A DNA stretch of 21,469 nucleotides from a virus: positions 1 to 21,469 of IMG/VR virus record IMGVR_UViG_3300028393_001974; one strand, written 5' to 3'. The notes beneath the pieces were generated by a model. The model ran no database searches. It was not told the DNA's origin and saw only the letters and a program-made list of their open reading frames with translations. Each line of letters begins with the position of its first letter. The first letter of the stretch is position 1. The translations under genes were made by a program, and so were the position numbers. This document shows positions 1 through 21,464 of this stretch, one piece after another.

Positions 1-3000
1 CATTCCAGTTAGAACGCTCAGCAGCCTGAGATACTCCAGCCTTTTTTAACTTATCCATTTGAGCAAGGTGTGCTTGTTTCTGTTGAGCAATATAGTTATT
101 TCCAGCGGCTGTATAATAAGAAGATAGGAAATCTTGAGGAGTTTTATTTGCCCGAAGGTGCATCTTAATAACTTCATCGTGGATAGCCTGAGCATCACCC
201 TCAAGATCAGTTGCTTGTGGGATAAAGAAAGCAGCACCATTAGCGTTCTTGCTATTAATTAAATCTTGATTTCCTTCAATCCAATTGATAGCCTTATTTG
301 TATAAGGAATCATTGAACCTTTAATTGCAGCCTCTGTACGAGAGATAGTATATGAAATAGCACTATCGCCGTGTTTATCTAAGAAAGTATTTAAAGCCTC
401 TATATAAGTATAAGGCTTGCCTGTAACTGGAGACTTTTCTTTAAGCATCTTATAGAACTCATCGCGTAAGCCTGGATCTTCTTGGCTTACTGCTGGTGCT
501 AAAGGACTCATTGTTCCTAGTAATGCTTTCATAATCATAATTGATTTAGCATTATTTTTAATACGATCAACAAATGCTTGTTTTTCTAATGGTGAAGCAT
601 CAGCACTTGGTACTTTACCGTGATATTGTGCTGCTGATAAAGCGGCAATAGTTGCATTATAAAAAGATGATTCAGTTTCTTTTGCATCAATAGCGTGGAA
701 AACAGTTCTTGCTACTGAGTTAGGCATTAGTTGGTCAAATAAACTCTTTGAAAATCCTGCTCCGCCAACAACCTTTTTAATTTCACGATCTAAGGTTGGG
801 TCAAATGAACCAATTGTATTTGCTGCAATTGATACGAATGGAGATACTCCAGGAGTATTAAACTCTGGGAGTACTGTTTTTAAAGATTCTAAATTACCAG
901 TTACAGTTACTGGCAGTCCTCCTACTACTGGCAATCCAAAGGCTGCGGCACCACTTAATACCATAGAACCAAATTCACCAATTACAGGAACTGTTAAATG
1001 TTTTTGTCCATTAGCATCTTCTTCAACAAACCCTGGATCATTTAATCCCTGTTGAATTAATTGATACTGACGGAAGGCTGCTGGGTTAGTAGAGATTAAA
1101 GCACCAGCACGGCGCATAGCCTGCTCTTGTGCAAAATAGAATGGTAGATAGTTACGTACCAATACGCCAAATTGTGTACGCATTGCAGTATTGTGAATCT
1201 GAGGAACCATAGCAAATGAAGCACGGGTCATAGCAATACGCAGACCTTCTTCTTCGCTAATCTTTCCAGTGTTTATAGCATATTGAACGCTACGAAGTTC
1301 GTTTTTAACGTGGTTAAAAAATAAAGGTTGGCGAGACATATTATTGATAATTGGATCAATAACTTTTTCAAAACCAAAGTTGGTAATACGTTGTTGTAAG
1401 TTTGGTCCAACTGTTATTTCATAACGTTGACCTGCTACACCTTTTGGTTTTAAACCCAATTCAAGAGATTTAATTTCTTCAAGGCCAACTTTTTCGCCTC
1501 TAGCAATTTTCTCCATAAATTTAATATTTGTATTACCATCAAGACGTCCAGTAAATAAATTACGCATAGTATCTACGCGACGAGCAGAAAAAGCAGCAGG
1601 ATTTTCATTTGTGTATCCAGCCATAACTGCACGTTCTGAAGCATATGGATCATCTTTGGTTGGCTTGCCCATAAAATTTGGTGAAGTTTCATTAAACTCT
1701 ACTTTACGAATACGGGCTTCATCTTTTAGACGAGCAATTTCCCAAGCCTCATCTACATCAGCACCACGTTTTAATTCAGTTAAAGCATCTGCAACAATTT
1801 GACGACGTGCTTTACCATCTGCAGATTTTGCTAATTGGCTAAAATAATGTAAATCAAATTGTTCGTCAACATTTGTAAAATGACTATATTCACCAGTAGC
1901 GGCTAAGAATTGACGCTTATGACGCTGTGAAGCAATATCAGTTAATTGACGTAAAAATTCTTGTTGTTCTGCTGGGATGCCATATCCAGTAAATGTAGCA
2001 CCAGTTGCCATATGACCACGAGTTGCAATAGTAATACGTGCTGCTAAATCTAAATCATCTTCAGATGCTAATTTTGCTAAACCTTTGGCAATAGTTTTGC
2101 GAATTGGTTTTCCTTCAACTGCAGCAGCAGCCTTTGCAAGATATTCAACTGGATCGGTACCTTGAGATACTGCGTGAATAGCATTTTCCAAAATTGCATC
2201 ATCTTCGCCTTTGGCAAGTTTATAATTCATTTTTTGAGATGAGCCAGCAATTTTAGATTTTGCTATTTCAAATGAACCAAATCTAAATACTGAAGGTATA
2301 AGTTCAGATGCTGCAATACGTAAACCAAATCCACCAGTAAGAAGTGCTAATGGTTTAAAGATACCGTCTGTGTATGTAGCACCAAAGTTATCAATACGTC
2401 CATATAACTTTCCGTATTTACTAAGGTTACGCATAGCACCTTTGACTTCACGAAAATCTGGCATTGAAAAGAAACCACGTTGATCTTCAAATAAACCTTG
2501 TGTGGTACTACGACCATTTAATTGAACTACAGATGCACCTTCACCTGATTTTTCACCAAATCCATATGCTGTTTTATCTAATGGACCGTGGACAAGTTGT
2601 GCTACTTTATCCATTGTTTTAGTAACAAATGTTGAATCATCTGGTATACCAGCAGCCTTTAACATTTCGTGTACAGCGCCAGTATAAATATCTTTTTTTT
2701 CGCCAATATTGCCACGCAAAAATTCTGTAGCCTTTTGTTTAGCCATTTGATCTGACATTGAAAATCGCATAATGCGATATACAGATACTAAAGATGCTGG
2801 ATCTTCTGGATCAAATTTTAGGTTTGATAAATCTAATGTCTTAGTATCAATTGTGTATGGTAAATAACCAGAGAATGTTCTAGTTTTACTAGCAAGTGCT
2901 GACTTCCAAGCATCACCTGACCAAGGTCTAAATACTACAGGTAAAACTGTTTGTATTTGACCAGTATTAATTACATTACCAGCCTCATCAAGCGTTAATT

Positions 3001-4246
3001 TTTCTGCTTTACGAGGCAAGAAAAAGTTTGCCTGATTGCCACGTAAATACAATTCATCATTTGTATCCCATTGGCGTAATTTATCTGCTACTTTTGAAGT
3101 AGCGGCACGAAGCACTGTTCTATTTGGAACCATAGCGGCACCATTTACAGAAAATGCTTTCATAAAATCTACATCATATTGAGCATTTAAAAATACATTA
3201 TGTATATCATCGCGAGTTAATTCGCCAGTTTCAGGTTTCTTTAAATACTTTGCTAAACCTTGAAGTCCTGGATAGCTTTGAACTACTGCTAATTCTCCGC
3301 CACCTTCTTTGATTGATTTATTTATTAAAGACGTAATGTCATCTAATGCTCTTATATAACGAGTTCCAGCCCCGCCAAATGCACGATCTAATACTGTAGG
3401 GTTTTTACCTGCTTGATATAAAGAATCTAATTGTTCCGTTGAGCCAAATGTTCTTAAACTATTACGCTCTAAGAAACCTTGAATACCTTGCTGAATACTA
3501 CGGAAAGGAATTTTATTTGTTAATACAGGTTTACCTTCTTCAGTTTTTAATGACCTAATTAGGTTTCCCTGTTGAACTGCTGTTTTTGCTTTAGCGGCAA
3601 CAACTAATGGATCTAAGGTAAAGTCAAATACAATATCACCTGCACCAGATACAACTTTACCTAAGCCTTTATCTGTGTTACGTAAATCACCTAGTCCAGG
3701 AACTAACGCTGCGGCGTTTGCAAAATCTCTACCAAATGAAACTTTATAATCTGGGTTTTCTGAATCTTGAATTGAATCTCTGTATGTAGTTCCAAATAAT
3801 CCTGCAAGTTTGCGTTCTAATGCGCCCGCTGCGGCTACACCAGCAGCAGTACCTTCTGGGCCAAAAAATGAACCAAGAACTCCACCGCCAACAATTCCTG
3901 CTGTAGCCATAAAGCCATTAATAATACCGTGACGTGTATAAACTGAATGAATAAATTTATAATCGCGTTGAACTTCTTGTAATGGTTTTGCCATCCATTT
4001 TAGGCTACCACTTACAACTTTAGCAGCGCCACCAAACATAGATTGAAATATGTTTTCGCTACCGTGAGTAGCAATATTATCTTGAACCGCTTGTTGAAAA
4101 GCAACGCCATTATTTAAATGACTAATATTGGTTGCTGCAACTGCAGGGTTTGGTGAATTTAAAACATCTCCAACTAATGCAGGGGTATGCTGTAGTTGTG
4201 GATTATCTGCAAGAACTTGGTTGGCTTGTATAACTTTATCTGCCAT
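1..4246 (-). CDS. Giant virion-associated protein, 3' end outside window
   Basis: An open frame starts at ATG 4246 and stays open to the left edge, giving 1415 codons with no stop, so the C-terminus is missing. I recognise no enzymatic motif. A Gly/Ala-rich hydrophobic stretch at residues about 107-142 could insert in a membrane. A second Gly/Ala/Val-rich stretch lies near residues 1092-1115, and the rest is mixed charged, mostly helical-looking sequence. It follows terminase, portal and four small genes on the same strand, so a structural role is inferred. Very large proteins at this place in short-tailed phages are often internal ejection proteins; a tape measure or large polyvalent protein is possible. 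Codons are more AT-rich than in the plus-strand block. Coding status is very likely; function is a guess. Confidence 0.85.
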   Translation of the reverse strand, partial: MADKVIQANQVLADNPQLQHTPALVGDVLNSPNPAVAATNISHLNNGVAFQQAVQDNIATHGSENIFQSMFGGAAKVVSGSLKWMAKPLQEVQRDYKFIHSVYTRHGIINGFMATAGIVGGGVLGSFFGPEGTAAGVAAAGALERKLAGLFGTTYRDSIQDSENPDYKVSFGRDFANAAALVPGLGDLRNTDKGLGKVVSGAGDIVFDFTLDPLVVAAKAKTAVQQGNLIRSLKTEEGKPVLTNKIPFRSIQQGIQGFLERNSLRTFGSTEQLDSLYQAGKNPTVLDRAFGGAGTRYIRALDDITSLINKSIKEGGGELAVVQSYPGLQGLAKYLKKPETGELTRDDIHNVFLNAQYDVDFMKAFSVNGAAMVPNRTVLRAATSKVADKLRQWDTNDELYLRGNQANFFLPRKAEKLTLDEAGNVINTGQIQTVLPVVFRPWSGDAWKSALASKTRTFSGYLPYTIDTKTLDLSNLKFDPEDPASLVSVYRIMRFSMSDQMAKQKATEFLRGNIGEKKDIYTGAVHEMLKAAGIPDDSTFVTKTMDKVAQLVHGPLDKTAYGFGEKSGEGASVVQLNGRSTTQGLFEDQRGFFSMPDFREVKGAMRNLSKYGKLYGRIDNFGATYTDGIFKPLALLTGGFGLRIAASELIPSVFRFGSFEIAKSKIAGSSQKMNYKLAKGEDDAILENAIHAVSQGTDPVEYLAKAAAAVEGKPIRKTIAKGLAKLASEDDLDLAARITIATRGHMATGATFTGYGIPAEQQEFLRQLTDIASQRHKRQFLAATGEYSHFTNVDEQFDLHYFSQLAKSADGKARRQIVADALTELKRGADVDEAWEIARLKDEARIRKVEFNETSPNFMGKPTKDDPYASERAVMAGYTNENPAAFSARRVDTMRNLFTGRLDGNTNIKFMEKIARGEKVGLEEIKSLELGLKPKGVAGQRYEITVGPNLQQRITNFGFEKVIDPIINNMSRQPLFFNHVKNELRSVQYAINTGKISEEEGLRIAMTRASFAMVPQIHNTAMRTQFGVLVRNYLPFYFAQEQAMRRAGALISTNPAAFRQYQLIQQGLNDPGFVEEDANGQKHLTVPVIGEFGSMVLSGAAAFGLPVVGGLPVTVTGNLESLKTVLPEFNTPGVSPFVSIAANTIGSFDPTLDREIKKVVGGAGFSKSLFDQLMPNSVARTVFHAIDAKETESSFYNATIAALSAAQYHGKVPSADASPLEKQAFVDRIKNNAKSIMIMKALLGTMSPLAPAVSQEDPGLRDEFYKMLKEKSPVTGKPYTYIEALNTFLDKHGDSAISYTISRTEAAIKGSMIPYTNKAINWIEGNQDLINSKNANGAAFFIPQATDLEGDAQAIHDEVIKMHLRANKTPQDFLSSYYTAAGNNYIAQQKQAHLAQMDKLKKAGVSQAAERSNWN

Positions 4247-4249
4247 AAG

Positions 4250-10002: not shown

Positions 10003-10167
10003 ATGACTAGATCATCCATTAATACACTATTAGACGGTTACGATTATGATAACCAGGCCTGGTATCGCGGCGGCGTATATATCCGCTGCGGGCATCCAGA
10101 ATCTATGGACTGCCGCTGCTACGGTTTGATTAATGAAGGTTTGCCAGTAATAAAGGTGGCGATCTAA
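10003..10167 (+). CDS. Small cysteine-rich protein, unknown
   Basis: A 54-residue protein starting MTRSSINTLLDGYDYD. Its leader AATGAAGGGTAATAAAT (9984-10000) contains the AAGGG ribosome site and is repeated exactly before the LPD29 gene (11717-11733). Residues 29-39 carry CGHPESMDCRC, which could bind a metal with Cys29, His31, Cys37 and Cys39. The stop TAA overlaps the next ATG (TAATG), so it is coupled to the ArdC-N-like gene. No known family is recognised. It is the first gene of the rightward block. Confidence 0.65.
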   Translation: MTRSSINTLLDGYDYDNQAWYRGGVYIRCGHPESMDCRCYGLINEGLPVIKVAI

Positions 10168-10538
10168 TGGCCAGATCTAAGGAGGATAAGCAGCAATTTA
10201 TTAAGGATTTACGCGCTGCTGCTGCAGCGATAGATCATCCAGGCCTGGCGATTCCAGTATCTATTGGCCGCGCTTATTCCAGGTTTAATGCTTTATGTAT
10301 CTTAAGCCAGGATCCACGCGCCACCAATTGTGCGGGATTCTACGCCTGGCGTGATGCAGGCCGCGCCATTAATAAGGGATCTAAGGGAATTGCGATCCTG
10401 GTACCAATGGGGACTTATGGCAATGAAGACGGGGAAGACGTGATGAGATTCTCCTGGCGTTACGTGTTTGATATTAAGCAGACGCATCCAATTACCGATG
10501 CGGACGTTAAAACACTTAAGCAACACCAGGACGCTTAA
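10167..10538 (+). CDS. ArdC N-terminal-like (ssDNA-binding, antirestriction-type) protein
   Basis: A 123-residue protein resembling the N-terminal domain of ArdC (PF08401 type). It has an N-terminal basic helix, then RFNALCILSQDPRATNCAGFYAWRDAGR, then the typical turn INKGSKGIAILVPM, then an aromatic strand WRYVFDIKQTHP. ArdC proteins come from conjugative plasmids, bind single-stranded DNA and protect incoming DNA from restriction; the full ones add a metalloprotease domain, absent here. The short form suggests a stand-alone DNA-binding part. It starts by TAATG overlap with the upstream Cys-rich gene. Assignment is from motif recognition only; a protective role is inferred. Confidence 0.7.
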   Translation: MARSKEDKQQFIKDLRAAAAAIDHPGLAIPVSIGRAYSRFNALCILSQDPRATNCAGFYAWRDAGRAINKGSKGIAILVPMGTYGNEDGEDVMRFSWRYVFDIKQTHPITDADVKTLKQHQDA

Positions 10539-11049: not shown

Positions 11050-11637
11050 ATGACTACTGCAACACTGGAGAAAATAGACGTTACGGTTAACGATCTATAC
11101 GATCTATTAACTGGCGCTGCAATTATGGCTGATAAGGATAATTCCAGATCATCCATTAATGGCGTACACTTATCCGCCGCCGATGGTAAATTATACGTTA
11201 AGGCGACGGACCGTTACCGATTAATTATCGGTAGCGTGGATTATTCTGGCGATCTGCCAGAATCATTAATCCCACTGGACCAGATTAAAAAAATTACCGA
11301 TCTGCTTAAGTCTAATTTAAAAAACACCAGTAATCTACCAGTAGAATTAAACGTCGCTGACACTTACTTAACCGTAGGTTTATTGGGTAGTACTCTAAAG
11401 GTTAGCCTAGCCGATGGTCAATTCCCATCGGTTGAGAAGATAATCAACACCGAGCCAGTGGCCACTAGTGAGATAAGCATAAACGGTAAGTTTTTGGCCG
11501 ATTTTGCTAAGGTACCAGCGGTAAAGTCTCACCAATTAAAACTGCGATTCCAGGGAGATAATAAGCCCGTGATCGTTGAGATTTTGCACGATTCTATTAA
11601 CTGGACCGCGCTACTTATGCCAATGCGGGTTAAGTAG
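11050..11637 (+). CDS. Short DNA sliding clamp homologue (beta-clamp family)
   Basis: A 195-residue protein with clear bacterial beta-clamp features: NGVHLSAADGKLYVKATDRYRL (residues about 37-58), like the domain II strand ending in ATDxxRL; LADGQFPSVEKII (about 119-131), like the loop between domains II and III; and the C-terminus LLMPMRVK, like the ...VVMPMRL end of bacterial DnaN. Normal beta clamps have about 370 residues in three domains. Here there is room for about one and a half: one whole domain II-like unit and the second half of domain III. The start follows GAAGGG and its own promoter. A processivity clamp is the likely role; how the ring closes is unknown. Confidence 0.8.
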   Translation: MTTATLEKIDVTVNDLYDLLTGAAIMADKDNSRSSINGVHLSAADGKLYVKATDRYRLIIGSVDYSGDLPESLIPLDQIKKITDLLKSNLKNTSNLPVELNVADTYLTVGLLGSTLKVSLADGQFPSVEKIINTEPVATSEISINGKFLADFAKVPAVKSHQLKLRFQGDNKPVIVEILHDSINWTALLMPMRVK

Positions 11638-13149: not shown

Positions 13150-13226
13150 TTATTGTTATCGCTATTGGGGCAGGTATAGCAGGGGTTTACCTAGCCGACC
13201 TATTACACAAATGGGAAACTGAGTGA
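13146..13226 (+). CDS. 26-residue membrane microprotein
   Basis: GTG 13146 overlaps the upstream stop and TGA 13224-13226 overlaps the WhiB GTG. The product has one hydrophobic segment, MIIVIAIGAGIAGVYLADLL, and a charged tail HKWETE, enough for one short membrane helix. It is too short for homology, but the double overlap and clean membrane profile favour a real gene, perhaps a translational bridge to WhiB. Confidence 0.4.
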   Translation: MIIVIAIGAGIAGVYLADLLHKWETE

Positions 13227-13627
13227 GGTTTGATACCACCAACGCTAATTGTATAAACCAAGACCCAATATATTTTTTTCCTGAAACAGAACGCAACAGT
13301 AGCGAGGACAGGAAAATGGAATTGGCTATGAATACAGTTAAAGGATTACAGATCTGCGCAAGTTGTCCTATTAGACAAGCGTGTTTGGATAATTCTTTTA
13401 CTTCCATTGATACAATTAACTATGGCATATTTGGTGGCACGCTACCTTATGAAAGGCGAGAAGCAATAGGCAAGATGTCCCGTGAAATCAAACAAAACAC
13501 AACCTATTACCAACATACATACCGCAAACTGGCAGATGAACACGGAGTTCCCCGTCATTACATCAAGCCAAGAGAGGTGAGTGGAGATTTATGGCACGGA
13601 ATATATCAAGACGAACAAAGTGCGTAA
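13223..13627 (+). CDS. WhiB-family iron-sulfur transcription factor
   Basis: A 134-residue protein with the WhiB hallmarks: Cys10 followed by a DP..FFPE segment (residues 14-21), then CASCPIRQAC with Cys45, Cys48 and Cys54 (C-x2-C-x5-C), then GIFGG (68-72) and ERRE (77-80), the turn and start of the basic tail. WhiB proteins hold a 4Fe-4S cluster and usually bind host sigma factor region 4 to redirect transcription. The Cys10-Cys45 gap (34 residues) is longer than usual, and the basic C-terminus is extended by about 50 residues. GTG start with 4-base overlap to the membrane microprotein. Confidence 0.88.
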   Translation: MRFDTTNANCINQDPIYFFPETERNSSEDRKMELAMNTVKGLQICASCPIRQACLDNSFTSIDTINYGIFGGTLPYERREAIGKMSREIKQNTTYYQHTYRKLADEHGVPRHYIKPREVSGDLWHGIYQDEQSA

Positions 13628-14705: not shown

Positions 14706-14811
14706 TGTCCACCTTACAATTCTTTACGCATACCCAATATAATTCATAGTAAGAATGATCTACCACTGGTCTGATCTCTGTTCTACACAACTTACTATGC
14801 TTAATCTCCAC
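14692..14811 (-). CDS. 39-residue Cys-containing small protein (candidate)
   Basis: GTG 14811 lies eight bases after GGGAGAG, a good ribosome site at the end of the sigma-like gene. The frame gives 39 residues, MEIKHSKLCRTEIRPVVDHS to the C-terminus with YYELYWVCVKNCKVDNAKL. Cys9, Cys28 and Cys32 and aromatic content suggest a small zinc- or protein-binding unit. It overlaps the sigma-like gene by 11 bases at its start and the FmdB gene by 14 at its end, and it fills an otherwise empty gap in a gene-dense block. Confidence 0.45.
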   Translation of the reverse strand: MEIKHSKLCRTEIRPVVDHSYYELYWVCVKNCKVDNAKL

Positions 14812-15433
14812 GAGAGTATCTCTCCCAAGGGTTATCTCCACCTAGTTTATAACACAACCTACGAAGTGCGCCACGCACCTTACGATCAGCAGTTGAATCA
14901 GATACCTGTAAGGTAGTTGCTATCTGCGATAGCGTAAGGTTCTCAAAGAATCTAAGTTCAAGCACCATACGATCTTGAACATCAATCTTTTCTAACCCTC
15001 TTTTAATATCTATCACGCTAACAATATAGTTGCCACCCTCAGCAGGGTTACCACCACCTGAAACTTTTGGCTTAGAAGTATCTTTAGCCTCTGCTATCTC
15101 ACCCCACACATAAGGCAATACTTCAGTAAGGATTGCTGGCGTGTAGTAAACTTCATCTCTTAACTCATAACCTAATGATTGTGCCTTACGCCTTCTGCAA
15201 TATCTATCAGCGTGGCGACTTAAAGTTTTACCAAGATACCTAACACCGCGTTCGCGTTCTTCTTTATTCTTTGTTGGATCTAACCACATCTTAACTTTAT
15301 CTTCACGCTTGATACACCACACAAGCAACTCTTGGCGCAGGTCAGACACATCAAAGTAAGGTTGATACTTCTTATGCACCTGTCTTGCTATCTGAGTGGC
15401 AATATCGGTGGCTTCATCAAGCCAATTATCCAT
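14801..15433 (-). CDS. Sigma-70-like transcription factor
   Basis: A 210-residue protein. Residues 1-90 look like sigma region 2 (FDVSDLRQELLVWC at about 27-40, then an Arg/Lys-rich helix RYLGKTLSRHADRYCRRR). Residues about 150-205 look like region 4: a helix DRMVLELRFFENLTLSQIA and a helix-turn-helix TLQVSDSTADRKVRGALRRL. An Asp/Gly-rich linker joins them. Such phage proteins may direct host polymerase to late promoters. Starts by TAATG overlap with the Nmad1 gene. A sigma-like regulator without core binding is the alternative. Confidence 0.75.
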   Translation of the reverse strand: MDNWLDEATDIATQIARQVHKKYQPYFDVSDLRQELLVWCIKREDKVKMWLDPTKNKEERERGVRYLGKTLSRHADRYCRRRKAQSLGYELRDEVYYTPAILTEVLPYVWGEIAEAKDTSKPKVSGGGNPAEGGNYIVSVIDIKRGLEKIDVQDRMVLELRFFENLTLSQIATTLQVSDSTADRKVRGALRRLCYKLGGDNPWERYSRGD

Positions 15434-16033: not shown

Positions 16034-16400
16034 ACTTGACGTGAAAATATCCCACTAATTTATTTCTGTGACCTTTATCGTTAAACTCAGTTGTGTTAGG
16101 TAACCATTTATGAAACCATTTAGGTTCATCAACATCAGATAAGTCAAAGCCATAAACACCATCAGGTGTTGAGTTTATATACCAAGGCACTGCGCCTTTA
16201 GCACTAGCAGTATCTAGTAAGTGATGATACTTTGTAGATTCAATTAACAATTCATCATAATGTGTCTTGCGAGATTTAAGTTCAACATATACCTCATACT
16301 CATATGACTCACAATCAAAAGAATCAAACTGTCCTTTAGATCTTTCAAGATCAGACCAGTAATTCTCTTTCAAATACGCAAAGAGTTCCTGCTCTTTCAT
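16017..16400 (-). CDS. PD-(D/E)XK-like nuclease candidate
   Basis: A 127-residue protein with a possible nuclease core: Asp26/Asp29 (FDSFDC), then YEVYVELKSRKT with Glu40-x-Lys42 as ExK, then a helix LLIESTKYHHLLDTA, then a strand region VPWYINSTPDGVYGFDL. The order acid - ExK - helix matches the PD-(D/E)XK superfamily, shared by resolvases and restriction-type enzymes. The core is small and motif spacing loose, so a non-enzymatic relative is possible. It follows the Ntn hydrolase gene by a 1-base overlap. Confidence 0.5.
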   Translation of the reverse strand: MKEQELFAYLKENYWSDLERSKGQFDSFDCESYEYEVYVELKSRKTHYDELLIESTKYHHLLDTASAKGAVPWYINSTPDGVYGFDLSDVDEPKWFHKWLPNTTEFNDKGHRNKLVGYFHVKYAYNF

Positions 16401-16960
16401 TACTCCGACTGGCTGTATATCAGTAATGGCTCACCGCTTTCAGTATCATATTGACAGGCTATGGATAAGGCTGTTCTTATTACTAACGTTGCGGTTGCTA
16501 TAGATTTGGGTAATGCGTAAGTAGCCATAGCACCCAAAGCATAGTCCCCACCTGAACCTAATGCGTAGTAGCCACGCCGATCTTTAGTCCAAGAGTAATC
16601 ATAACTAATGGCATATAGATTGCCATACACTGCAACTAATATATCTGTTCCACTATCTCCATCTTTAGGAACGTAAGCATTATCAGCATAACACTGCTGT
16701 AATGCAGGTATAAATCTTGAACCAATAAACTTATCTAACTTATAGGTAGATGTAAATGGTGGTGGCTTAGGAAAATTAAAGTTAAAAGCAAGAATGTTTG
16801 TTGGTCTAAAATCGCCCACAGTAGCCACATAATATGGGCCACGCTTCATAATTTTACCCAAACCTTTGGTAGTTGAGTAGGCACGACCACCCTCAGATAC
16901 CTGAGAATCAGCACCTAATACACACCAGCCATCACCTTGGATGCCAACAACGGTACTCAT
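16400..16960 (-). CDS. Proteasome/HslV-like Ntn hydrolase
   Basis: A 186-residue protein aligning to the HslV/proteasome beta pattern. If Met1 is removed, Ser2 matches HslV Thr1, Asp18 in VLGADSQ matches Asp17, and Lys36 in GLGKIMKRG matches Lys33 with a two-residue insertion. Later, YYALGSGGDYALGAMATYAL (about 130-149) is the usual conserved strand-turn-helix, and the C-terminal helix is followed by a DTESGEP loop. It would be a self-compartmentalised peptidase or a related amidohydrolase; no ATPase partner is visible here. Start by TAATG overlap with the primase gene. Confidence 0.72.
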   Translation of the reverse strand: MSTVVGIQGDGWCVLGADSQVSEGGRAYSTTKGLGKIMKRGPYYVATVGDFRPTNILAFNFNFPKPPPFTSTYKLDKFIGSRFIPALQQCYADNAYVPKDGDSGTDILVAVYGNLYAISYDYSWTKDRRGYYALGSGGDYALGAMATYALPKSIATATLVIRTALSIACQYDTESGEPLLIYSQSE

Positions 16961-18633: not shown

Positions 18634-18827
18634 TATGTAACACTCTTATCCCCTCTAAGGATTCGGATTGCCCATTCCATACCCATATTAAGACCATCGC
18701 CCCATTCATCTGTGGCTTTAATCTTTGCTGCTTCAATCTTTTCTATATGCTTATTTATTTCAATCTTGAGTTCAGCGTGAAGCAACTCCTTCACTCTAAT
18801 CTCTACATCTAAATCTTCGTTAATCAT
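18633..18827 (-). CDS. Small helical acidic protein, unknown
   Basis: I chose ATG 18827 (MINEDLDVEIRVKELLHAE...), giving 64 residues, because sequence before it overlaps the ATPase gene out of frame and has no protein character; a longer frame begins at 18905. The product is an amphipathic helix rich in Glu, Lys and Ile (residues 8-45) with WAIRILRGDKSVT at the end, probably a coiled coil. It sits between the ATPase and the 160-residue gene. No family recognised. Confidence 0.5.
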   Translation of the reverse strand: MINEDLDVEIRVKELLHAELKIEINKHIEKIEAAKIKATDEWGDGLNMGMEWAIRILRGDKSVT

Positions 18828-19683
18828 ACCTCTGTGTCCAATCCCGCACATAGTTATGGTTTGTTGTGCTGGTGTGAGCCACAATGATATCAGAAGTTCG
18901 CTCATTATGTATCAACATACGAGACGCGTCGGTCCACAATGTAACAAAGCGTTCTCCAGTTGCAGAGTTCTTAGCAAAGCGATTCTTTACACAAGCAATT
19001 CTAAACTCACCAGTATCAGGTACTAATGCCACAGTTAAAATCATTTCAGGCAACTGACTAATCTTGCCTTGAATAGATTTACGGCTAGGTGGTAAGTCAG
19101 GCTTACCTTCTGCTTCAGATGTATGGTGAAGTAAAATCACTCCTGCTTCAGTCTCACGAGCAATATGGTGCATAGCCTTGGCTATCTCACGTAGTCCTGA
19201 CCATTCATTTTCGTGCATAGATACTACGTTCATAGCATTATCTACAATAATCATATGAGGATATTGCCCATATGATTCTGCGTATGCTCTGATTGCTAAA
19301 TCAATCTCATCTAATGTAGGGCTTGGAGAAAAATCAAACTGTAAATGATTAATGCTTTGCAATTCTTGAGTATAAAATTCTTGACCTGCGCCATTGGCAA
19401 AGGCTTCTTCAACAGTCGTTACCTTATTGCCAGTAATCATTGACGCTGCTCTAATGGCAGTTGTATAGCCATCAGTGTCTGCTGATATGTACAGCGTTGG
19501 CACCTTCATTTGCACCGCCATCCATAACGCTAATAAAGATTTACCTGCGTTAGGTGCGCCAGCAATCATAGTCAATTGCCCCCGTCTGAACCTAATCCCT
19601 TCCTGTTGTAAGGTTGGGAATAGGTCAGGCAGTAGTGCGTAATCATTTGTGCTTTTCGCTGCCGCTTGAGTTAAGGACAGCAT
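18820..19683 (-). CDS. RecA-fold ATPase, DnaB-type helicase or recombinase
   Basis: A 287-residue protein with Walker A GAPNAGKS (42-49), Walker B MIIVDN (144-149), and LLHHTSE (about 184-190), the usual sensor in DnaB/RecA-like ATPases. KNRFAKNSATGERFVTLW near 235-252 resembles the DnaB DNA-loop region, where KNR and a following G are typical. It lacks the DnaB N-terminal domain, as do many phage helicases of the AAA_25 type. A replicative helicase working with the split primase is the likeliest role; a recombination ATPase is possible. Confidence 0.82.
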   Translation of the reverse strand: MLSLTQAAAKSTNDYALLPDLFPTLQQEGIRFRRGQLTMIAGAPNAGKSLLALWMAVQMKVPTLYISADTDGYTTAIRAASMITGNKVTTVEEAFANGAGQEFYTQELQSINHLQFDFSPSPTLDEIDLAIRAYAESYGQYPHMIIVDNAMNVVSMHENEWSGLREIAKAMHHIARETEAGVILLHHTSEAEGKPDLPPSRKSIQGKISQLPEMILTVALVPDTGEFRIACVKNRFAKNSATGERFVTLWTDASRMLIHNERTSDIIVAHTSTTNHNYVRDWTQRYD

Positions 19684-19689
19684 TAGATA

Positions 19690-20073
19690 TTAGCGAACGA
19701 ACTTAGGTTCGCACTGATCGGCAGTACCCTTTGGAGAAGGACAGAACCAACCCTTCCAAGCCTTTGGTGCGCCTGGCTTTGACTCACGCCAAACTAAATC
19801 ACCGTGTTTACAAGAGTTAGCACTTGTTGCACCAACTGGAACTGCACCTAATGCAGTCTTAGCATATGCAACTGCTGCTGAAGATTGTGTTGGTGCTACA
19901 CGAACAACAGAATTTGTTAACGCTCCTGCTGTAGAAGCAATTAATGAAACAGTATCTTGAATAGTAGTTAGGCTACCTTCAAGTTCTGTCGCTGAGTTTG
20001 CATATATGTTTACTAAGGTACCGTCAGGTAACTTGTAATTGATTTGGAACTTGGTTCCTTGTTCTCCAGCCAT
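19690..20073 (-). CDS. Candidate ssDNA-binding protein with zinc tail
   Basis: A 127-residue protein. The N-terminal part starts GEQGTKFQINYKLPDGTLVNIYANS, beta-rich; the middle is Ala/Ser/Thr-rich and flexible; the end is a Cys/His tail CKHGDLVWRES ... GWFCPSPKGTADQCEPKFVR with His and three Cys, likely a zinc knuckle. Small phage proteins with this tail, between helicase and nuclease genes, are often ssDNA-binding. A strong AAGGAG site precedes the ATG. No OB-fold motif is obvious by eye, so the call is tentative. Confidence 0.5.
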   Translation of the reverse strand: MAGEQGTKFQINYKLPDGTLVNIYANSATELEGSLTTIQDTVSLIASTAGALTNSVVRVAPTQSSAAVAYAKTALGAVPVGATSANSCKHGDLVWRESKPGAPKAWKGWFCPSPKGTADQCEPKFVR

Positions 20074-20083
20074 TTGTTTCTCC

Positions 20084-20743
20084 TTATTTTATTGTTGCTA
20101 GTGGGTCGTAAAGTTGTGCTAGTTCCCCACCAGTAGCGTAGCAGTAATCCTTCACGCCACAAGTAGAGCAAGCCATACCTATATTAGGTAGAAATATTTG
20201 ATTCTCCACACCACGATTGAACTGAGCAAACAGTTCAGTAAGTAATGGGATAGTCCAGCGATGTAACCCTTCAGCCTCTAAGAAAGTAGCCTTACGGGAA
20301 GAATAATAGTAACCTCTAGTTGGTCTTGTGCCAAACTTCATCTCCATAGCACAAGCGTAAATGCCCAATTGAAGGGCTGAGTCGGGCGTATAAGCCCCTG
20401 TCTTGAAGTCAACCACTACTAGTTCACCACCAGCAGTAACTGCTATTAGATCGGCGTATGCCTTAACTAAAACATCACCAAAGTTTGAGTTAAGTTCTAT
20501 CTCAATTCCTGAAACACCCTGAGGTGATTCCCATATGGTTAGTTGTGAGTCTTTCCAAGCAGTAATAAAATCAAGAAACATTTTCTTTCCATTGACATCC
20601 CACCAAGCCTTGTTCTCTTTGTCAGGATTAGCAATAGATACTCTGCCACCACGACGCCAATCAGTTGGATTAGTCTTTGACTTAGCCTCTGTCTCGGCTA
20701 TTGCTTCTAAGAATGATTGATCCCATATCTCTTCTAAATTCAT
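20084..20743 (-). CDS. Cas4/RecB-like exonuclease, C-terminal part
   Basis: A 219-residue protein carrying the catalytic core of a PD-(D/E)XK RecB/Cas4-type nuclease: KAYADLI (Asp98), VVDFKTG (Asp112, Lys114), QLGIYA (Gln125 to Tyr129), and the iron-sulfur end ACSTCGVKDYC (Cys192, Cys195, Cys201). Three of the four cluster cysteines are here; the fourth lies in the fragment at 21273. Actinophage nucleases of this family are usually one protein of about 280-300 residues. Here the first quarter is a separate gene, with three small genes between. Own ribosome site GGGAG; ATGA overlap with the upstream gene. Confidence 0.82.
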   Translation of the reverse strand: MNLEEIWDQSFLEAIAETEAKSKTNPTDWRRGGRVSIANPDKENKAWWDVNGKKMFLDFITAWKDSQLTIWESPQGVSGIEIELNSNFGDVLVKAYADLIAVTAGGELVVVDFKTGAYTPDSALQLGIYACAMEMKFGTRPTRGYYYSSRKATFLEAEGLHRWTIPLLTELFAQFNRGVENQIFLPNIGMACSTCGVKDYCYATGGELAQLYDPLATIK

Positions 20744-20925
20744 TGGACTTCTCCCGCCACTATTTTTTTTGCAGTTTGTAGTCCTTTAATTATATCAGCA
20801 TTTGTTTCTCTATCTATCTCTGTCTGAATCATCTTGCCTAGGGCAAGTCGCATAATCATTTCAGACTCAACAAAGGCTGTGCGAAAAGCATCTTGCCCCA
20901 TTATCTTAGATTTGCGTGCGCTCAT
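20740..20925 (-). CDS. 61-residue helical protein in the nuclease gap, unknown
   Basis: Sequence MSARKSKIMGQDAFRTAFVE and two more helices (EMIMRLALGKMIQ, ADIIKGLQTAKKIV) look like a small helical bundle, with no Cys. It starts by ATGA overlap with the zinc-ribbon gene and ends by ATGA overlap with the nuclease C-terminal gene. It is one of three genes between the two nuclease pieces. Function unknown. Confidence 0.5.
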   Translation of the reverse strand: MSARKSKIMGQDAFRTAFVESEMIMRLALGKMIQTEIDRETNADIIKGLQTAKKIVAGEVQ

Positions 20926-21068
20926 TTACAACTCGTACAATAGTTAGATACTCTAATATTTCCATATGTAACATAGTATTTATGACCACAATGGAAACAA
21001 ACAATCTGTACTAAAGTATCAGTTTTTATATCTGTATAATAAAACGGATTACGTATTCTTAATCTCAC
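20922..21068 (-). CDS. 48-residue zinc ribbon
   Basis: GTG 21068 has AAGGGAA six bases upstream. The product has CFHCG (Cys24, Cys27) and a C-terminal CTSC (Cys44, Cys47), a compact C-x2-C ... C-x2-C ribbon with aromatic strands between. It overlaps the upstream stop by 4 bases and the downstream start by 4. Probably nucleic-acid- or protein-binding; no named family. Confidence 0.55.
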   Translation of the reverse strand: MRLRIRNPFYYTDIKTDTLVQIVCFHCGHKYYVTYGNIRVSNYCTSCK

Positions 21069-21280
21069 GTTAGATTCCCTTCATAAGGTGCGACGGCGAG
21101 TGAGTCGCAGAGCATACATCGCATATCCAAGAAGTAAATACCAATTGCTCCGTCATCGTCAAACTTACATTTGACGTTCCATACTTCAGATCCACACGGA
21201 CAGACTCTGATCGGACCAAGCGCCCTGTAGTCCCCTTCTCCACCTTCATTAGGTTTGACATAAGCAATATCCTTAGCCAT
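21065..21280 (-). CDS. Zinc-binding phage protein, 71 residues
   Basis: ATG 21280 overlaps the stop of the nuclease N-terminal fragment by eight bases. Start MAKDIAYVKPNEGGEGDYRA; the core has CPCG, then WNVKCKFDDDGAIGIYFLD, then CMLC, so CPC, Cys and C-x2-C can hold one zinc. Proteins of this type are common next to the Cas4-like nuclease in actinophages, to my knowledge, which supports the start. A longer frame to 21340 overlaps the nuclease fragment further and is less likely. Confidence 0.6.
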   Translation of the reverse strand: MAKDIAYVKPNEGGEGDYRALGPIRVCPCGSEVWNVKCKFDDDGAIGIYFLDMRCMLCDSLAVAPYEGNLT

Positions 21281-21464
21281 TCTTTTTTTCAAATTCGGCA
21301 AGCAGATACTTCTCTGCTGCTGAGTGGAACGCTGATCCACCCACGAACCACCACGCTGGAGATTGTGGTGCTTCTAATATTTTTTCCAACTGATAAGCCT
21401 TACCGCATCTTATCCACGTGGAAAATTGTGAAAACGATTTGTGACCTACTGCTATTTTTTCCAT
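21273..21464 (-). CDS. Cas4/RecB-like exonuclease, N-terminal fragment
   Basis: A 63-residue frame near the right edge. SFSQFSTWIRCGKAYQLEKI (Cys20 is the missing first iron-sulfur cysteine of Cas4-type nucleases) and PAWWFVGGSAFHSAAEKYL (His47, motif I) are the start of the RecB/Cas4-like family. It stops after EFEKKNG, exactly where the separate C-terminal protein (MNLEEIWDQSFLEAIA) would continue. Five window bases remain beyond the ATG, so an earlier start outside the window cannot be excluded. Together the two pieces would have all motifs of one active enzyme. Confidence 0.75.
   Translation of the reverse strand: MEKIAVGHKSFSQFSTWIRCGKAYQLEKILEAPQSPAWWFVGGSAFHSAAEKYLLAEFEKKNG

Follow-up and report, generated by a model that had tools for sequence, protein, structure and literature searches.

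The right end of the window (the whole stretch of DNA analysed here, 21,469 nucleotides of the IMG/VR record IMGVR_UViG_3300028393_001974) carries on its minus strand two parts of a nuclease gene with three small genes between them, in the order N, I1, I2, I3 and C, with stops and starts that overlap by 4–8 nt. The features are as follows.

21273..21464, minus strand: N gene, 63 aa, N-terminal part of a putative Cas4/AddB-type PD-(D/E)XK Fe-S exonuclease, with Cys20 and G-x-x-x-H (GGSAFH, His47)
21273..21280, minus strand: stop/start overlap ATGGCTAA, 8 nt, holding the N stop and the I1 start
21065..21280, minus strand: I1, a 71-aa zinc-ribbon protein between N and C
20922..21068, minus strand: I2, a 48-aa zinc-ribbon-like protein, the gene in the variable slot (cluster CL5)
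20740..20925, minus strand: I3, 61 aa, helical by appearance, with tblastn matches between N and C in loci with a multi-gene insert
20084..20743, minus strand: C gene, 219 aa, with Asp98, Asp112-x-Lys114, Gln125-xxx-Tyr129 and Cys192/195/201
19690..20073, minus strand: Phage_gp49-like gene (weak Pfam match, PF25690), the conserved downstream neighbour, which marks the syntenic position
18820..19683, minus strand: DnaB/RecA-like ATPase (phrog_243, E 4e-71), next in the module

The overlaps are ATGGCTAA for N/I1, an arrangement also present in the related loci L003-L007, GTGA for I1/I2, and ATGA for both I2/I3 and I3/C. The start codon of I1 is the ATG at 21280-21278, which corrects the earlier call: the window translated from 21277 reads AKDIAY..., and the relatives read MAKDIAY.... 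With this correction, the original prediction of a nuclease split over two genes with three small genes between them stands, each ORF lying where it had been placed. The N gene begins 5 nt from the window edge; since L003 and L004, which include upstream sequence, use the same Met, the gene is complete. Further genes of the module near the locus are a RusA-like resolvase and a Toprim primase (Pfam/PHROG profile matches). Taken with the gp49-like gene and the ATPase, they are similar to the actinophage replication module.

Both pieces can be assigned to the same family. N matches the exonuclease family phrog_69 (E 5e-11) and, in the phrog_1870 profile, positions 14-66 (E 6e-5); C matches phrog_1870 over positions 77-296 (E 4e-32) as well as Pfam PDDEXK_1 (E 3e-11), so that the two genes account for successive stretches of a single profile; judged by these scores, the homology of both to the exonuclease family is far above chance. 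The Cas_Cas4 Pfam model gave an E of 0.048, below the cut-off. A CRISPR adaptation Cas4 is rejected because the neighbours are the gp49-like gene, the DnaB-like ATPase, the resolvase and the primase, not cas1/cas2.

Residue conservation was assessed in an alignment of 161 non-identical joined sequences, comprising 82 with inserted genes (INSERT), 61 that are split and uninserted (OVERLAP), and 18 that are FUSED. Invariant positions are Cys20, Gly43 and His47 in N, and Glu81, Asp98, Asp112, Lys114, Gln125, Tyr129, Cys192, Cys195 and Cys201 in C. The catalytic motifs GxxxH, D, DxK and QxxxY are all present, His47 being supplied by N and the remainder by C, as are the four putative Fe-S cysteines, one in N and three in C. 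One would expect a Cas4/RecB-type exonuclease to be one polypeptide; at this locus there are two ORFs separated by three genes, and a single chain is found only in the fused relatives.

The break can be placed on a predicted structure. AlphaFold2 models the fused relative L230 with a pLDDT of 94 and a pTM of 0.90, and by alignment the break maps to loop 61-66 of this model, between helices 44-60 and 67-78. The top PDB matches of the L230 model in Foldseek are AdnA, ACE1 Cas4-family proteins, AddAB, EXO5 and SSO0001. The model of C alone has a pLDDT of 85.5, falling to 60-74 over the last 40 residues, where the C cysteines are located, and it retrieves the same families (ACE1/AdnA/Cas4) with a less complete match; given its reasonable predicted core, C might have some function without N. 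In these models, the Cas4/AddB/AdnA/EXO5 Fe-S nucleases appear to have their fold and motifs in common with the window nuclease. To our knowledge, the solved structures of that group keep all four cysteines on one chain.

The split is not peculiar to this record. A first scan of IMG/VR gave 80 loci in which C is 63-98% identical to that of the window, and N is present as a gene separate from C in all of those that cover the upstream region, with 365-750 bp from the N stop to the C start. A second scan, with the C gene of OX376640 (ct2KA10) as the query, yielded 80 loci from a sister lineage broken at the same position. OX376640 is Planktophila phage LanE43AprE7 (E7) and OX376641 is LanE43AprF5 (F5); in both, the nuclease is broken at the same place as in the window and has no insert, and C is ~35% identical to the window's. 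E7 and F5 are lytic isolates in culture, phages of freshwater Nanopelagicales ('Ca. Planktophila') (PMC10202952). The original prediction allowed for an assembly error joining the genes; this is ruled out, as the split is seen again in many contigs that were assembled independently and in the genomes of two isolates. No relatives were confirmed in bacterial or archaeal genomes, and I1 had no match in isolated phages.

Other genes in the window fit an actinophage, namely a WhiB-like regulator (13223-13627, plus strand), a sigma-70-like factor (14801-15433, minus strand) and a beta-clamp-like gene (11050-11637, plus strand). A WhiB-like regulator and a sigma-70-like factor are also reported for the Planktophila phages E7 and F5 (PMC10202952). 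The 195-aa beta-clamp-like protein matches the clamp profiles for the central (PF02767) and C-terminal (PF02768) domains alone and falls in PHROG families described as RusA-like or processivity factor. Elsewhere, the gene at 10167-10538 (plus strand) encodes a 123-aa protein with a partial match to the N-terminal domain of the anti-restriction factor ArdC (PF08401), an HslV/proteasome-like peptidase (phrog_1040) is encoded at 16400-16960 (minus strand) within the replication-side operon, and a 1416-aa open frame at 2-4249 (minus strand), whose position makes a large virion protein probable, runs off the left contig end.

Relatives lacking the insertion, the comparison proposed at the outset, do exist, and they come in both fused and split forms. 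The FUSED state is seen in isolated actinophages and in L229-L231, L234-L246 and L341. The same exo-to-DnaB order with a single-chain exonuclease is found in phages of Mycobacterium, Rhodococcus, Thermobifida and Propionibacterium (Cutibacterium is also listed). These Cas4-family/RecB-like exonucleases of actinophages (phrog_1870, phrog_69) share with the window nuclease their family, their catalytic and cysteine residues and their position upstream of a DnaB-like gene, but they are single-chain, whereas in the window Cys20 and GxxxH are encoded by a gene of their own, separated from C by others. On one 90-kb contig (IMGVR_UViG_3300046678_000420) there are two fused copies of the exonuclease ~45 kb apart (L239, L243).

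Between the fused form and that of the window lies a series of junction states. In L232 and L233, an in-frame TAG separates the halves, with a TTG after it. In the OVERLAP state, the frame of C is +1 relative to N and there is no insert; this is found in the E7/F5 lineage and in L207, L211-L218, L222, L223 and L226. An insert of I1 alone is present in L219-L221, L224, L225 and L227, and the multi-gene inserts combine I1 and I3 with a varying set of genes placed between and around these two. All through the window lineage, I1 separates N from C, and I2 (CL5) is confined to the closest relatives, its slot being filled by other genes in other lineages. A few members of the E7/F5 lineage have unrelated genes at the same junction (L124, L125, L127 with 961 bp, L152 with 302 bp, and L158 with 326 bp). 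The search for relatives of I1 returned 451, many of them at other genome positions; in the case of L311/L321, an I1-like gene follows DnaB, the exonuclease is a single open frame with no I1 at the junction, and a gene similar to the gp49-like neighbour is again found downstream of the exonuclease. Such genes, therefore, move.

On a tree of the sequences, these states require at least seven changes. A single clade for the inserted state of the window lineage is rejected (AU p 8.5e-6). Grouping all splits as one clade is not rejected (AU p 0.10), but is rejected without L232 (p 0.014), which leaves a single fission, several, or the re-fusion of some fused forms all possible. The tree by itself does not set the direction of the insert changes; fission before insertion is, on these sequences, the more economical order.

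The principal rival to that order is that the cassette of small genes itself split an intact gene by inserting into it, as mobE did in the nrdA of Aeh1, and that the uninserted splits are later losses. The mobility of I1-like genes, found at other genome positions in relatives, and the repeated gain or loss of I1 within L218-L225 both speak for it. However, the E7/F5 lineage is almost entirely uninserted at the same break and its few inserts are unrelated, the inserts include no clear endonuclease, and a broad uninserted OVERLAP group (L207, L211-L217, L226) lies inside the window's own clade. We consider this account improbable, and the original prediction that a mobile cargo split an essential gene, a view also at odds with the one-gene inserts, probably has the order of events backwards.

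One should also keep in mind that a single protein may still be produced, by ribosomal frameshifting, read-through or intron splicing. Given the +1 frame of C in the uninserted relatives and the in-frame TAG of L232/L233, such recoding is imaginable there, but the junction sequences differ and show no common slippery motif on inspection, and no intron family was found. Furthermore, with 200-960 nt of other genes between the halves, recoding cannot bridge them, which makes this explanation very improbable. A group I/II intron or an intein was rejected: Rfam gave no match, and N and C each have a start and a stop of their own and do not share a frame.

Selection on the two halves was examined through pairwise dN/dS. 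For N, the values are 0-0.10 in the window group (against L003-L007) and 0.14-0.33 in other groups with the variable tail included; those for C are 0.08-0.20, for I1 0.07-0.17, and for I3 0-0.16. By this measure, N is under purifying selection. That the gene is decaying, N being a non-functional remnant and C having a reduced or altered function, is hardly credible: fission can come before loss, and C alone does retain a well-modelled metal-binding core, but N has a dN/dS near 0-0.1 and Fe-S and GxxxH residues that are 100% conserved across large divergence, and all first-scan loci that span the whole region have it.

A PDDEXK_1 search of 17 larger records with the split nuclease found no intact second copy, and returned either the two pieces or C alone, the short N often being below threshold. 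The 64-kb record G013 has one additional PDDEXK match elsewhere. In a Mantel test of distances, N and C correlate with r 0.63, N and I1 with 0.45, and I1 and C with 0.68; given the high I1-C value, the test does not single out N and C as a pair.

The reading that we prefer, and regard as highly likely on sequence grounds, is that one Cas4/AddB-type Fe-S nuclease is made as two polypeptides that assemble in trans, with fission first and the cargo later. Very probably the enzyme functions with its two pieces assembled, as indicated by the invariant residues distributed over both halves, the low dN/dS of N, the lack of an intact second copy in 17 larger genomes and the presence of the split in cultured phages. 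Of the two alternatives originally put forward, it is the assembly of a nuclease from two polypeptides that is well supported by the same observations. The 63-aa N subunit would contribute the conserved histidine of GxxxH and the first of the Fe-S cysteines, and the 219-aa C subunit the other three cysteines along with the metal-binding core; the two would associate physically and share a single Fe-S cluster. An ancestral single-chain actinophage exonuclease would have been broken in the inter-helix loop, giving two overlapping ORFs that are translationally coupled, presumably by re-initiation. The resulting stop/start junction, being harmless, would then have been invaded by small genes, the zinc-ribbon I1 first and later I3 with changing others, each incoming gene preserving the overlaps so that the halves remain on one coupled message. 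The predicted exonuclease activity would probably be used for DNA end resection in replication/recombination.

The C-terminal tail of N deserves separate mention. In the inserted window-type lineage, 36 of the 49 distinct tails have Pro-Phe as their last two residues, usually preceded by acidic ones (loci in L008-L081, L169-L201 and L228; e.g., KDTEIPF in L016), compared with none of 28 uninserted tails (17 from the E7/F5 lineage and 11 from the window-type lineage). The tail codons vary (CCG, CCA or CCT for Pro; TTC or TTT for Phe) and the following genes differ, so the constraint seems to act on the protein. The window and its nearest relatives have no such tail, and their N ends within the I1 start. 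These acidic Pro-Phe endings resemble the C-terminal peptide of SSB, given as DDDIPF in PMC5872125. A search of 18 of these phage records gave no PF00436 match, and so no phage-encoded SSB that might serve as the model for the tail, which makes a tie to the host SSB or its partners conceivable. A more daring idea, one that we find rather unlikely, is that N has become a separate, exchangeable control piece, having gained its Pro-Phe tail in most inserted lineages. Through this tail the nuclease could be anchored to the host proteins that bind SSB, or the tail could compete for these proteins, and the coupled zinc-ribbon proteins would act as accessory subunits in a single complex.

That a split phage enzyme can reassemble is already known. 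Examples of phage genes in pieces are the nrdA of Aeh1, split by mobE, the T4 topoisomerase gene 60, split by mobA, and gp43A/gp43B of phages 25 and 44RR, a split gene possibly invaded only after splitting (PMC2988022). As in those phages, the enzyme of the window is encoded as two polypeptides, with both fragments conserved and jointly covering the whole enzyme. Unlike them, the break has no clear homing endonuclease, the inserts being zinc-ribbon and other small proteins, the putative Fe-S ligands are on both chains, and the intermediates have been found. I2 has a weak partial match to the HNH family phrog_559 (E 0.001, 35 residues around the zinc ribbon), and I1 has none. A limited literature search found no report of a split phage Cas4 nuclease, and the word 'split' is absent from the Cas4 phylogenomics paper. 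Within the literature searched, what appears to be new is an Fe-S nuclease with its putative cluster ligands on two gene products, together with preserved intermediates and a break that repeatedly receives small genes with no clear homing endonuclease.

For those annotating such genomes, the locus carries a warning, as a 63-aa half is easily labelled 'hypothetical' and the nuclease misread as truncated. The relatives would form a natural series, from a single-chain Fe-S nuclease through a two-gene enzyme to a break that gathers new genes, and this suggests that a break can turn into a lasting insertion site with no homing endonuclease involved. The locus also provides a putative natural Fe-S nuclease of two chains, open to testing in phages that are in culture and infect a very abundant freshwater bacterium.
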